This document shows positions 2,410 to 63,160 of a stretch of 64,000 bases of DNA, piece by piece (within the stretch, counting starts at the first letter, position 1; each line of letters begins with the position of its first letter). A program made the position numbers and the translations under genes. This DNA comes from Desulfocapsa sp. (lineage in GTDB: Bacteria; Desulfobacterota; Desulfobulbia; Desulfobulbales; Desulfocapsaceae): contig JAQYVF010000001.1 in assembly GCA_030145625.1 (NCBI GenBank), forward strand, positions 62,001 through 126,000, read 5' to 3'. The notes under the pieces are model-generated. The model saw only the letters and a program-made list of their open reading frames with translations. It had not been told where the DNA came from and ran no database searches.

Positions 2410-3201
2410 ATGCTTTTCACCATAGATGTCGGCAACTCACATACCGTTACAGGTCTTTTTGAAGGTGAGAAACTCATTGGTCAGTGGCGTCTGAAGTCGG
2501 ATCGGGAACGAACCGATGACGAATTGGCAATCCGTTACCATGCCCTTTTTTCCATGGTAGGGATCGACAAGGAACAGATTCATGGAATCATCCTGGCAAG
2601 TGTTGTCCCATCCCTTGAGGCCGCCTGGATCTCCTGCTGTGAAAAGTATTTTTCCAACCATCTTGAAAACCCTCTCTTTGTGGTTTCTGCTGACACTATT
2701 TCAGATGCGATCACCATCTCCACTGACTATCCGGAAGAGGTGGGTGCGGACAGATTGGTTAATGGTATAGCAGCCTGGGAACGTTTCAAACAGAATCTGA
2801 TTATTATCGACTTTGGTACAGCCATCACCTTTGACTGTGTTTCCGCCAAATGCGAATATCTTGGAGGACCCATCTTGCCTGGTATTGCCATATCGCTGGA
2901 TGCCCTTTCCAACCGGGCCGCCAAACTACCCCGTATTGACGTCTCAACACCTCCTAAAAGAGTTATTGGCCGTAACACTATCGATGCCATGAAGAGTGGA
3001 GTCCTTTACGGTTACGGCGCACTGGTCGATGGACTCATTGAACAAATTCGTAAAGAACTCTGCCCACAGGGCGAACCTCTAAAAGTGCTGGCCACCGGGG
3101 GCATGGCTCATCTGATTGCCCCCTATTCCAAGGCAATAGAAGAGATCGACCCCACCTTGACCCTGAGCGGTCTCCATTTACTTTATCAGAGAACATACTG
3201 A
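2410..3201 (+). CDS. coaX: Type III pantothenate kinase
   Basis: Catalyses ATP-dependent phosphorylation of pantothenate, the first committed step of CoA synthesis. The type III (CoaX) family needs a monovalent cation and belongs to the ASKHA fold. The 263-aa protein has the N-terminal phosphate loop DVGNSHT at residues 6-12, EEVGADRLVNG around residue 112 and IIDFGTAITFD around residue 132, followed by GGPILPGI. All are typical and intact. The stop codon (3199-3201) lies one base before the ATG at 3203 of the LD-carboxypeptidase region, so the two genes are probably co-transcribed. Confidence 0.94.
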   Translation: MLFTIDVGNSHTVTGLFEGEKLIGQWRLKSDRERTDDELAIRYHALFSMVGIDKEQIHGIILASVVPSLEAAWISCCEKYFSNHLENPLFVVSADTISDAITISTDYPEEVGADRLVNGIAAWERFKQNLIIIDFGTAITFDCVSAKCEYLGGPILPGIAISLDALSNRAAKLPRIDVSTPPKRVIGRNTIDAMKSGVLYGYGALVDGLIEQIRKELCPQGEPLKVLATGGMAHLIAPYSKAIEEIDPTLTLSGLHLLYQRTY

Positions 3202-3209
3202 TATGACTG

Positions 3210-3221
3210 CCCCCCCCCCCC
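3210..3221. repeat. 12-nt poly-C homopolymer at the start of the LD-carboxypeptidase gene
   Basis: A run of twelve C residues begins seven bases after the start of the ATG at 3203. With 12 C the frame from this ATG runs out of register with the enzyme and meets a stop within about 80 bp. With 10 or 13 C the ATG would join the enzyme frame. It is either a slippage-prone switch or a miscounted homopolymer. Confidence 0.9.
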
Positions 3222-3225
3222 TGTC

Positions 3226-4122
3226 TTGCAGCCGGGAGATACTATCGGTATTTTTGCTCCGGGTGGTCAAATTCGTGACTTAGCTCCCCTTGAACAGGGA
3301 GTCTCCATTCTTCAGGAAATGGGTTTTGATGTCAGAATTCCTCGTCAACTCTGGCCAGGAACCGGGTATCTTGCAGATACTGACCGCAACCGAGCCCTTG
3401 AATTCCACAGAATGTGGACGGATCCAGAAATTTCGGCCCTCTTAGCTTTGCGGGGGGGGTTCGGCTGTCTGCGCCTGCTTCCTCTTCTTGACAGAAACGA
3501 ACTTCGGCAGCATCAAAAAATGCTCATCGGATTTTCTGACATTACAATACTTCACCAAGCCCTCTTTCAAACAACAAAGATGGTCAGTTTTCACGGACCC
3601 ATGCTCACCACCCTCTCTTCCTCCAGTCGGAAAAGTGTAGAACGGCTGTATGCCTGTCTCATAGGGAAATGGAAAGTTCCTGTTTCCGGGCCAAAGATAG
3701 AGGTCTTACGTGGAGGTGACCCTGCCAGGGGAACACTTGTCGGAGGTAACCTGAGCAGTCTCATGAGTCTGCTAGCCACCCCTTTTGAACAGGACTGGTC
3801 CAATGCCATTCTTTTTTTGGAAGATGTGGGGGAACCCCTCTATCGAATCGATCGAATGCTCACTCAGCTTGCCCATTGCGGGAAGCTGAACCAGGTCAGT
3901 GGAATTGTTCTGGGAGATTTTTCCCTGGTGCGTGATCAGGATCGTCTGGAAAGTCTTCGCTTCCAAGAACAGATCTGGATACGAGTCCTTGAGTTGACTG
4001 AAGCAACAGGGATTCCGGTATGGGGGGATTTTCCCGTAGGCCATGGCCCGGACAACCTTGCCCTGCCACACGGAGCCGAAACTGTCATGGAAAGTCGCCA
4101 AGCAATACTTTCATTTCAGTAA
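3226..4122 (+). CDS. LD-carboxypeptidase (peptidase family S66)
   Basis: Serine peptidase of the LdcA/MccF family. LdcA removes the terminal D-Ala from tetrapeptide murein fragments in the cytoplasm during cell-wall recycling. The 298-aa frame carries the expected Ser-Glu-His set: Ser104 in IGFSDIT, Glu199 in FLEDVGEP and His273 in VGHGPDN. The opening LQPGDTIGIFAPGG is where family members normally have about 5-10 residues already. The only in-frame start is TTG at 3226. The well-placed ATG at 3203, one base after the coaX stop, is out of frame because of the 12-C tract. Either TTG is used, the tract varies in length, or the sequence has a homopolymer error. MccF-type detoxification is an alternative function. 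Confidence 0.85.
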   Translation: MQPGDTIGIFAPGGQIRDLAPLEQGVSILQEMGFDVRIPRQLWPGTGYLADTDRNRALEFHRMWTDPEISALLALRGGFGCLRLLPLLDRNELRQHQKMLIGFSDITILHQALFQTTKMVSFHGPMLTTLSSSSRKSVERLYACLIGKWKVPVSGPKIEVLRGGDPARGTLVGGNLSSLMSLLATPFEQDWSNAILFLEDVGEPLYRIDRMLTQLAHCGKLNQVSGIVLGDFSLVRDQDRLESLRFQEQIWIRVLELTEATGIPVWGDFPVGHGPDNLALPHGAETVMESRQAILSFQ

Positions 4123-26252: not shown

Positions 26253-26927
26253 ATGAATTACGAGGCAAAACTTTCCGATATCATCGCCAGTCTTCCTGAA
26301 ATTGAAGGAGGTTTTCTTTTTGCACCTGAAAAGGGGGTTTATGCAAATCAGGCAACAGAAATTAGCAGCAATGATGACCTGTTACAGATTGCACTGAAGT
26401 TTTCCAAGATCTTTTCCATGCTAACCGTTCATTTTAACGATACGGGCAACTTCCGGGTAACATTCAAAGATCTTGTTCTTTTTGGTATGGTTCTTGACCA
26501 AGGACAATGGCTGTTTTTATTTCATCGCCCTTCTCTTTCTCCCAGTATGGTCAACATGACAGTTCAATTGGCCTTGAATATTGTAACGGATGAAACAGAA
26601 CAAAAGGATAGCCAGGAAGTCACTTCTCCCCCGGTAGAATCATCCCCCCCCCCTGTTCCCGATGAAAACACCACCCTGGAGACACTCCTCGCTCCCGAAT
26701 CTGATTTGAGCCGCCCCCTGAATAGTATCAAAGATGAACTCTCCAAATATATTGGTCCGGTGGCAGAATTGATCTTTGAGGAACTCGCAGAAGAATGGGG
26801 GACAAACTTTTCTCCAACCCTTAAAACCCTTCCCGAGCTCATTCGTCTCCTTGAAGAAGAAATTGACAATGACGATGACCGTAAAACATTTAAAAAGGCT
26901 ACGGATGCCTTTTTAGTAGAGGAGTAA
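26253..26927 (+). CDS. Roadblock/LC7-like protein with Pro-rich linker and C-terminal helical domain
   Basis: Unknown protein, 224 aa. Residues about 1-115 have the alternating pattern of a Roadblock/LC7 domain (LSDIIASLPEIEGGFLFAPEKGVYA, then LVLFGMVLDQGQWLFLFH), the fold of MglB-type regulators of small GTPases. Residues about 120-150 are an acidic and proline-rich linker that includes a ten-C tract at 26644-26653. Residues about 160-222 (YIGPVAELIFEELAEEW and following helices) resemble the short IGP-A helical domain that occurs with roadblock and kinase proteins (DUF8082-like, from memory). A second roadblock-like gene follows after 6 bp. No signal peptide. Confidence 0.7.
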   Translation: MNYEAKLSDIIASLPEIEGGFLFAPEKGVYANQATEISSNDDLLQIALKFSKIFSMLTVHFNDTGNFRVTFKDLVLFGMVLDQGQWLFLFHRPSLSPSMVNMTVQLALNIVTDETEQKDSQEVTSPPVESSPPPVPDENTTLETLLAPESDLSRPLNSIKDELSKYIGPVAELIFEELAEEWGTNFSPTLKTLPELIRLLEEEIDNDDDRKTFKKATDAFLVEE

Positions 26928-48226: not shown

Positions 48227-48311
48227 TTAATAATTTTAAAACGTTATTAGAATAATCATACAGAAACTTGGCATACTACCCCTTTTGAAAAAAAAAATCA
48301 GCTGTAAAAAC

Positions 48312-62155: not shown

Positions 62156-63160
62156 TCAGTGAGAAGATTCAGCGTTTCGCATGGCCTTTTTTTTTTCTGG
62201 CAGCGAACCGACGATATCCTGGATAAAATATCTGGGCCGTGCCCTGACATCATGATAAATTCGACCAATATATTCCCCAAGTAGGCCCATGGCAATAAAC
62301 TGAGCACCAATAAAGAAATAAACCAGAGCAAAGAGGGTGAAAACCCCGCCCACAGCCCATTCGGACCCATAAATGAGCCTGAGAATCAGAAGCAGTATAC
62401 CAAAGCCAAAGCCGGTTGCGGATATGATGCCACCGACAATGGAGAGCAGGCGCAGGGGGTAGGTAGTCATGGTGGTGACCAGGTCAAACATCAAAGAAAT
62501 CAGCTTACCAAAGCTGTATTTTGATTCCCCGAGAGTTCTCGCAGCATGCTCCACCTCTACCTCAGTGGTTGTTCTGGCAAAACTATTGGCAAGCACGGGA
62601 ATAAAGGTAGAACGTTCCTGGCACATAAGCATTGCTTCAACAATATGGCGTTTATAAACTCGCAACATACAGCCATAATCATGCATCATCACCCCGGTTG
62701 CCTTCTGCACAGCCCTGTTCACGAGTGATGAGGAAAATTTACGAAAAAACGAATCATTACGATTAGCTCGGACAGTACCGACCACATCATACTCTTCTCC
62801 CATGGCGACCAGACGTGGTATCTCTTCGGGAGGATTCTGTAAATCGGCATCCAGTGTGACGATGATTTCTCCACGGACCTTGGAAAAGCCGGCCATAATC
62901 GCATTATGTTGGCCATAATTACGATTGAGAAAAACTCCAACAACCTCACCCTCATTTTCTATTGCTGCTTCTTTGATGAGAGTGGCCGAGGTATCAGAGG
63001 AACCGTCATCCACAAAAAGGATCTCAAAGGATTTTCCGGTTTGACGACAGGCGGCAAGGGTACGGGCAATAAGTTTTCCCAGACAGGCTTCTTCGTTGTA
63101 CACGGGTATAACAACGGAAATGATAGGCTGTTCTTCTTTTTTAACATCCATCTCGTTCAT
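62156..63160 (-). CDS. arnC: Undecaprenyl-phosphate 4-deoxy-4-formamido-L-arabinose transferase
   Basis: GT2 family membrane enzyme that links the formylated sugar to undecaprenyl phosphate. The 334-aa protein has the GT-A domain ([42 protein letters not shown] with the metal-binding DAD motif near residue 105) and two C-terminal TM helices (about 240-265 and 275-300). [11 protein letters not shown] is typical of ArnC. It lies 4 bp after arnB. Confidence 0.94.

Follow-up and report, generated by a model that had tools for sequence, protein, structure and literature searches.

A 12-C homopolymer out of frame at the start of a peptidase S66 gene in Desulfocapsa sp., and how it may have arisen

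The start region of the S66 gene

In this study, the start region of a peptidase S66 gene was investigated in a 64 kb stretch of DNA (hereafter the window), which lies within contig C114 of a Desulfocapsa sp. draft genome of 4.98 Mb and 229 contigs, with a listed completeness of 100% and contamination of 1.26%. The source is a Desulfocapsa-type bacterium (Desulfobulbales, Desulfocapsaceae): G009, placed in the same genus, has a second replicon of 36,751 bases, and the first 15 kb of it match the Desulfocapsa sulfexigens DSM 10523 plasmid NC_020305.1 at 100%. A cable-bacterium (Electrothrix) origin was dropped on this account. The features of the region are as follows.

2410 to 3201, + strand: coaX (type III pantothenate kinase; Pfam Pan_kinase, 5.2e-67), the upstream gene in a probable operon, with its stop TGA at 3199-3201
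3203 to 3205, + strand: ATG, the inherited S66 start codon, one base past the coaX stop; the starts of relatives lie 7-12 codons before the core
3203 to 3225, + strand: leader of the S66 gene, 23 nt here; its counterparts in the three closest relatives measure 27 nt
3210 to 3221, + strand: 12-C homopolymer, out of frame as assembled
3203 to 3283, + strand: short ORF that the ATG opens out of frame in the assembly, 26 codons followed by TAG at 3281-3283
3226 to 4122, + strand: peptidase S66 ORF from TTG 3226, 298 aa plus stop; the TTG is the only in-frame start before the core
3452 to 3459, + strand: 8-G run within the S66 gene, in frame (LRGGFGC)

Read along the + strand, the coaX TGA (3199-3201) is followed by a single T, ATG ACT G (3203-3209), the 12 C, TGTC and TTG 3226. 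The original prediction held that the frame opened by ATG 3203 is broken by the tract, and a script confirmed this, as 12 C at 3210-3221 lead to TAG 3281-3283 after 26 codons. The same script reproduced the prediction that 10 or 13 C would join the ATG to PVLQPGDTIGIF, and TTG 3226 is indeed the sole in-frame alternative, with no earlier start codon in the S66 frame. The gene therefore harbors a simple repeat in its 5' coding part that sets the frame by its length, which is one of the features by which contingency loci are recognized. Of five promoter-like and four terminator-like matches, none extends over the stretch from ATG to TTG (3203-3226).

Both S66 domains were recognized above cut-off in the ORF from TTG 3226 (PF02016, 118.4 bits; PF17676, 118.1 bits), and this ORF is the sole match of its kind found in its own genome. 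It aligns over nearly its whole length with solved S66 LD-carboxypeptidases (e.g., 1zl0 = PA5198, and 6uuk), which display the same two domains and align from residue 7 or earlier of the TTG-started ORF, a likeness that compares the proteins and not the gene starts. The motifs IGFSDI, FLEDVGEPLYR and GHGPDN align with the solved chains and form a predicted catalytic Ser/Glu/His region, since we take GFSD, ED and GHG to play the catalytic Ser, Glu and His roles in S66. The score against the muramoyltetrapeptide carboxypeptidase equivalog NF008424 was 151.3 bits, below its cut-off of 378, and by its sequence the protein is placed in the same family, outside that curated subgroup. Pairwise dN/dS values of the S66 core were 0.11, 0.07 and 0.11 against the genomes G002, G012 and G007, respectively, and three more distant comparisons gave no ratio because of saturated synonymous sites. 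These values show purifying selection on the S66 coding part, and long-standing gene loss is disfavoured because the core is intact and constrained.

The inherited start, and poly-C tracts elsewhere

A match to the S66 gene was found in 52 of the 56 genomes searched, own genome included, and the start region was read in the own genome and in 29 relatives, 15 of which belong to the same genus. All 29 relatives carry a coaX homologue upstream of the S66 gene and, 7-12 codons ahead of the conserved core, a start codon (28 ATG, 1 GTG), in agreement with the earlier proposal of ATG 3203 as an operonic start. Their leaders vary in length and contain one to five Pro each. In the three closest relatives (82-86% identical), the ATG stands exactly 27 nt before the Leu codon that corresponds to TTG 3226, as against 23 nt here, and the closest leader, that of G002, reads MTISPPPPS in C-rich codons with T interruptions. 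None of the 29 relatives has the C tract, and the stretches displayed hold no C run longer than 7. Retention of a tract in related genomes, which would support a contingency locus, was thus observed in none of the 29. Two outcomes of such a comparison had been named as speaking against the switching idea; the missing tract was found, whereas a likely start at the TTG-equivalent position was seen in none of the relatives read. Because of these 29 starts and the missing tract, ATG 3203 is the inherited start and the tract a private change, apparently an expansion within a tolerant leader.

Three further same-genus genomes (G003, G015 and G017) gave no S66 match. In another genome of the genus, G011, a short T run marks a mid-gene split of the S66 gene (L140, contig C230:18900-20200), which may be a draft error or a real loss.

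To place the tract in its genomic setting, poly-C runs were counted and compared with dinucleotide-preserving shuffles of the 64 kb window. A 12-C run appeared in one of 100 shuffles, which scales to an expectation in the order of 0.8 for 4.98 Mb against the one found, a very rough figure from a single shuffle event. Overlapping 10-C matches numbered 18 in the genome, against about 13 scaled from the window shuffles (mean 0.17 per window), and tracts of exactly 9, 10, 11 and 12 numbered 22, 11, 2 and 1, respectively, tailing off smoothly to the 12 C as the longest such run in the genome. The 12-C tract is rare for the window, yet within the genome it is part of an ordinary upper tail. Dinucleotide composition predicts roughly the frequency of poly-C seen across the genome, and a genome-wide excess found no clear support in either the shuffles or the counts. 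Two of the three genome tracts of at least 11 are situated in the first seven codons of conserved genes, both out of frame, and chance explains this placement less well. The 19 other same-genus genomes hold from 3 to 111 overlapping 9-C matches each, and a run of 11 or more occurs in 14 of the 20 genomes, own included; some of these runs coincide with the very start of a contig and resemble artefacts. Contigs C127 and C135 of G016 begin with C runs of 24 and 65 from their first base, which are probably sequencing artefacts and inflate the poly-C counts of that genome.

The second of these start-proximal tracts belongs to a zinc-ribbon-like gene (L016 1501-1511, contig C181:3838-3848), whose first seven codons hold 11 C, out of frame. 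Its ORF is small, all its Pfam and NCBIfam matches are below cut-off, and it was matched in 16 of the 19 genomes searched, own included. In each of its 15 relatives the start lies exactly 27 nt before an A/S/V-N-R motif (13 ATG, 2 TTG), as against 28 nt here, where the frame has no start codon until near its end. The 11-C tract was absent from all 15. Pro is found in the leaders of both the S66 and the zinc-ribbon-like genes in most relatives, and such Pro-containing leaders offer C-rich seeds.

Comparatively, nine tracts of 9-10 are located inside open frames of at least 200 codons (L001, L002, L012, L097, L102, L105, L106, L107 and L113), in a list drawn from the 36 tracts of at least 9 and biased towards open frames, as the open frame was the way of finding them. 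L006 and L015 were left out by eye, their open frames exceeding 200 codons with likely gene starts 3' of the tract, and L112 was also left out. Family matches were obtained for seven of the nine ORFs; the matched domain spans the tract in L105, L106 and L113, and domains occur on both sides of it in L002 and, weakly, in L097. L012 is a run of 10 C at 26644-26653 of the window, in frame within a 254-codon open frame that has a Pro-rich stretch and no family match. Where tracts had no evident gene, ten of the 16 open stretches were checked for concealed broken genes, which yielded one match, below its cut-off.

Other tracts deserve separate mention. In L112 (about 1493-1510, contig C176:3113-3123), nine G stand between an out-of-frame ATG and a multihaem cytochrome open frame; this candidate for a third start-proximal case was withdrawn, as its nearest homologue (G007) starts at the TTG-equivalent position. 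In the own genome (G000), a TTG just past the G-run provides the alternative start, and the run may serve as a ribosome-binding site. In G007, an isochorismatase-like ORF (L079, contig C82, 1501-1511), seemingly broken mid-gene at 11 G, was not counted, its upstream part having stops, and may be a decayed gene. In L015 (near 1501-1510, contig C174:2256-2265), ten C and, immediately after them, ten A lie shortly 5' of the ATG of an ORF that by eye is lipoprotein-like, a possible expression-tuning tract. In G018 (L074 1501-1511, contig C86), eleven G lie directly 5' of an ATG, in the ribosome-binding position; the ORF presumably encodes a guanylate kinase.

Concerning assembly quality, a greedy ORF map accounts for 92% of the window, with no other obviously split gene upon inspection. 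Homopolymers of 7-8 inside the genes of the window leave continuous frames, including the 8-G run of the S66 gene, and general homopolymer miscalling across the assembly is therefore unlikely. A 10-A run at 48288, 5' of the probable ATG of a Dus gene, and a 10-T run at 62187, close to where a glycosyltransferase-like ORF ends, say little about miscalling.

Possible origins of the out-of-frame tract

We tentatively favour, with a confidence that falls just short of even, the explanation that the S66 leader holds a slippage-prone tract that is a by-product of its sequence, with the assembled length as one of a mixture. A private poly-C run would have grown inside a Pro-rich, length-variable leader as Pro codons lost their third-base interruptions where change was tolerated. 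Slippage of DNA polymerase would then keep the tract length unstable, so that cells with an in-frame tract would make the S66 enzyme from ATG 3203 and cells with other lengths would make a short peptide only, until the next slip. The assembled 12 C would represent one member of this mixture, and its instability would have come about without selection for switching. The private tract, the variable leaders, the intact core and the near-shuffle tract counts are consistent with this explanation, as is the zinc-ribbon-like gene with the same anatomy and a Pro-containing leader. Homologues of MutS and MutL are present (an open MutS-domain ORF and an open MutL-domain ORF), so loss of mismatch repair is unsupported as the cause of the tract and a high slippage rate is not to be assumed; these homologues should indeed lower slippage, which counts against a mixture. 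Moreover, the tract length is known from one assembly of the species, and a constant, miscounted length would look identical. The broken S66 gene of G011, too, could reflect draft errors or a dispensable gene.

That miscounted length, an option already raised in the original prediction, is itself an alternative, though on balance a rather unlikely one. It holds that the true tract has one constant in-frame length, that the assembly is wrong at runs of at least 11, and that the gene is ordinary and always on. The two longest in-gene tracts of the genome are both out of frame, as against the nine tracts of 9-10 in open frames, and the S66 gene is constrained. Biological homopolymer indels and sequencing errors are described as at present indistinguishable (PMC5320596). 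However, the window homopolymers of 7-8 are in frame, the ORF map looks clean, and the comparison with in-frame tracts is weakened by the bias of that list, so that errors would have to be confined to runs of 11 or more, as they could be. Less probable still is a real and constant 12 C, with a leaderless protein made from TTG 3226, low-level ribosomal shifting on the Pro codons, or loss of the gene. A start at TTG 3226 keeps both S66 domains whole, the solved homologues aligning from its first seven residues, and the S66 match is missing in three same-genus genomes and split in one. In E. coli, CCC-C beside a start codon is reported to shift at up to 1%, and tRNA-Pro(UGG) is able to shift two bases on CCC-CG (PMC4519876). 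Either TTG 3226 or a low level of shifting on the Pro codons may rescue the gene, but no relative read starts at the TTG-equivalent position, the C-run just 5' of the TTG makes a Shine-Dalgarno-like sequence there impossible, the S66 core is without decay, and the frame is not restorable by any +1 shift alone. Programmed ribosomal frameshifting at the S66 start was considered and set aside for want of positive evidence.

Selected phase variation, in which the tract would be a contingency locus turning the peptidase on or off and yielding cells that differ in peptidoglycan recycling, appears improbable. The anatomy is classic, with a tract in the first codons that is in frame at one of three lengths, and a second gene of the genome, the zinc-ribbon-like one, shares it. 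Homopolymer variation in Campylobacter peptidoglycan carboxypeptidase changes cell shape (PMC5133587), and poly-A/T tracts are generally located at the 5' ends of prokaryotic genes (PMC2831843). On the other hand, the latter paper describes poly-C/G tracts as generally under-represented, the S66 tract is shared by none of the 29 relatives read and the zinc-ribbon-like tract by none of 15, there is no clear genome-wide poly-C excess, and MutS and MutL homologues are present. In our view, the S66 tract is not to be classed as a phase-variable locus, and it may work like one. We likewise give only a slender chance to the broader proposal that start-proximal poly-C contingency loci, few in number but including at least the S66 and zinc-ribbon-like genes, slip between on and off in this Desulfocapsa species and give mixed populations differing in peptidoglycan recycling.

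Known systems and significance

Pgp1 and Pgp2 of Campylobacter are, we assume, not S66 enzymes and belong to a different enzyme family, and neisserial phase-variable loci are largely surface-related. The earlier remark that switching a murein-recycling peptidase would be unusual was too strong, as pgp1 and pgp2 of Campylobacter jejuni and C. coli provide a published precedent (PMC5133587). There, homopolymer changes in pgp1 (an 8-A tract at position 1,180) and pgp2 alter cell shape, with length variants and phenotypes recorded among clones and across 29 of 859 genomes. The likeness lies in a tract length that breaks the frame of a peptidoglycan carboxypeptidase gene, with potential phase variation of an envelope enzyme, whereas the Campylobacter tracts are poly-A or short, are late in pgp1 and have observed variants, and the present tract is poly-C at the gene start and comes from a single assembly.

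Gene switching by start-proximal homopolymers is already known (PMC2831843 and PMC5320596). Listeria monocytogenes inlA, in the former, resembles the S66 gene in that a one-base change in a first-codon tract truncates the product to a few residues; its tract is poly-A with switching measured by a reporter, whereas the poly-C tract here is known from sequence alone. Neisserial translational phase variation, in the latter, resembles it in that the 5' coding part holds poly-G/C and only one length in three keeps the frame, but the neisserial loci are many and their length variation is demonstrated, while here there are two candidate genes, neither of them a known surface gene. In the open-access literature searched, phase variation combined with LD-carboxypeptidase returned seven papers, each concerning Campylobacter by title or abstract; nothing was found on phase variation in Desulfocapsa, and cable bacteria combined with homopolymer gave three matches, off topic by title and abstract.

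If the lengths do not vary, the finding is a warning that gene calling in such draft genomes can cut an intact gene short, or overlook it, where a long C-run occurs; in the present case the S66 call would lack the leader, and the zinc-ribbon-like gene, with no start codon in its frame until near the end, could go entirely unnoticed. If the lengths truly vary, a free-living bacterium would have a start-proximal poly-C tract at work on one of its housekeeping envelope genes, and, should the contingency loci prove true, phase variation would extend to a sulfur bacterium, beyond the host-associated species best known for such tracts.
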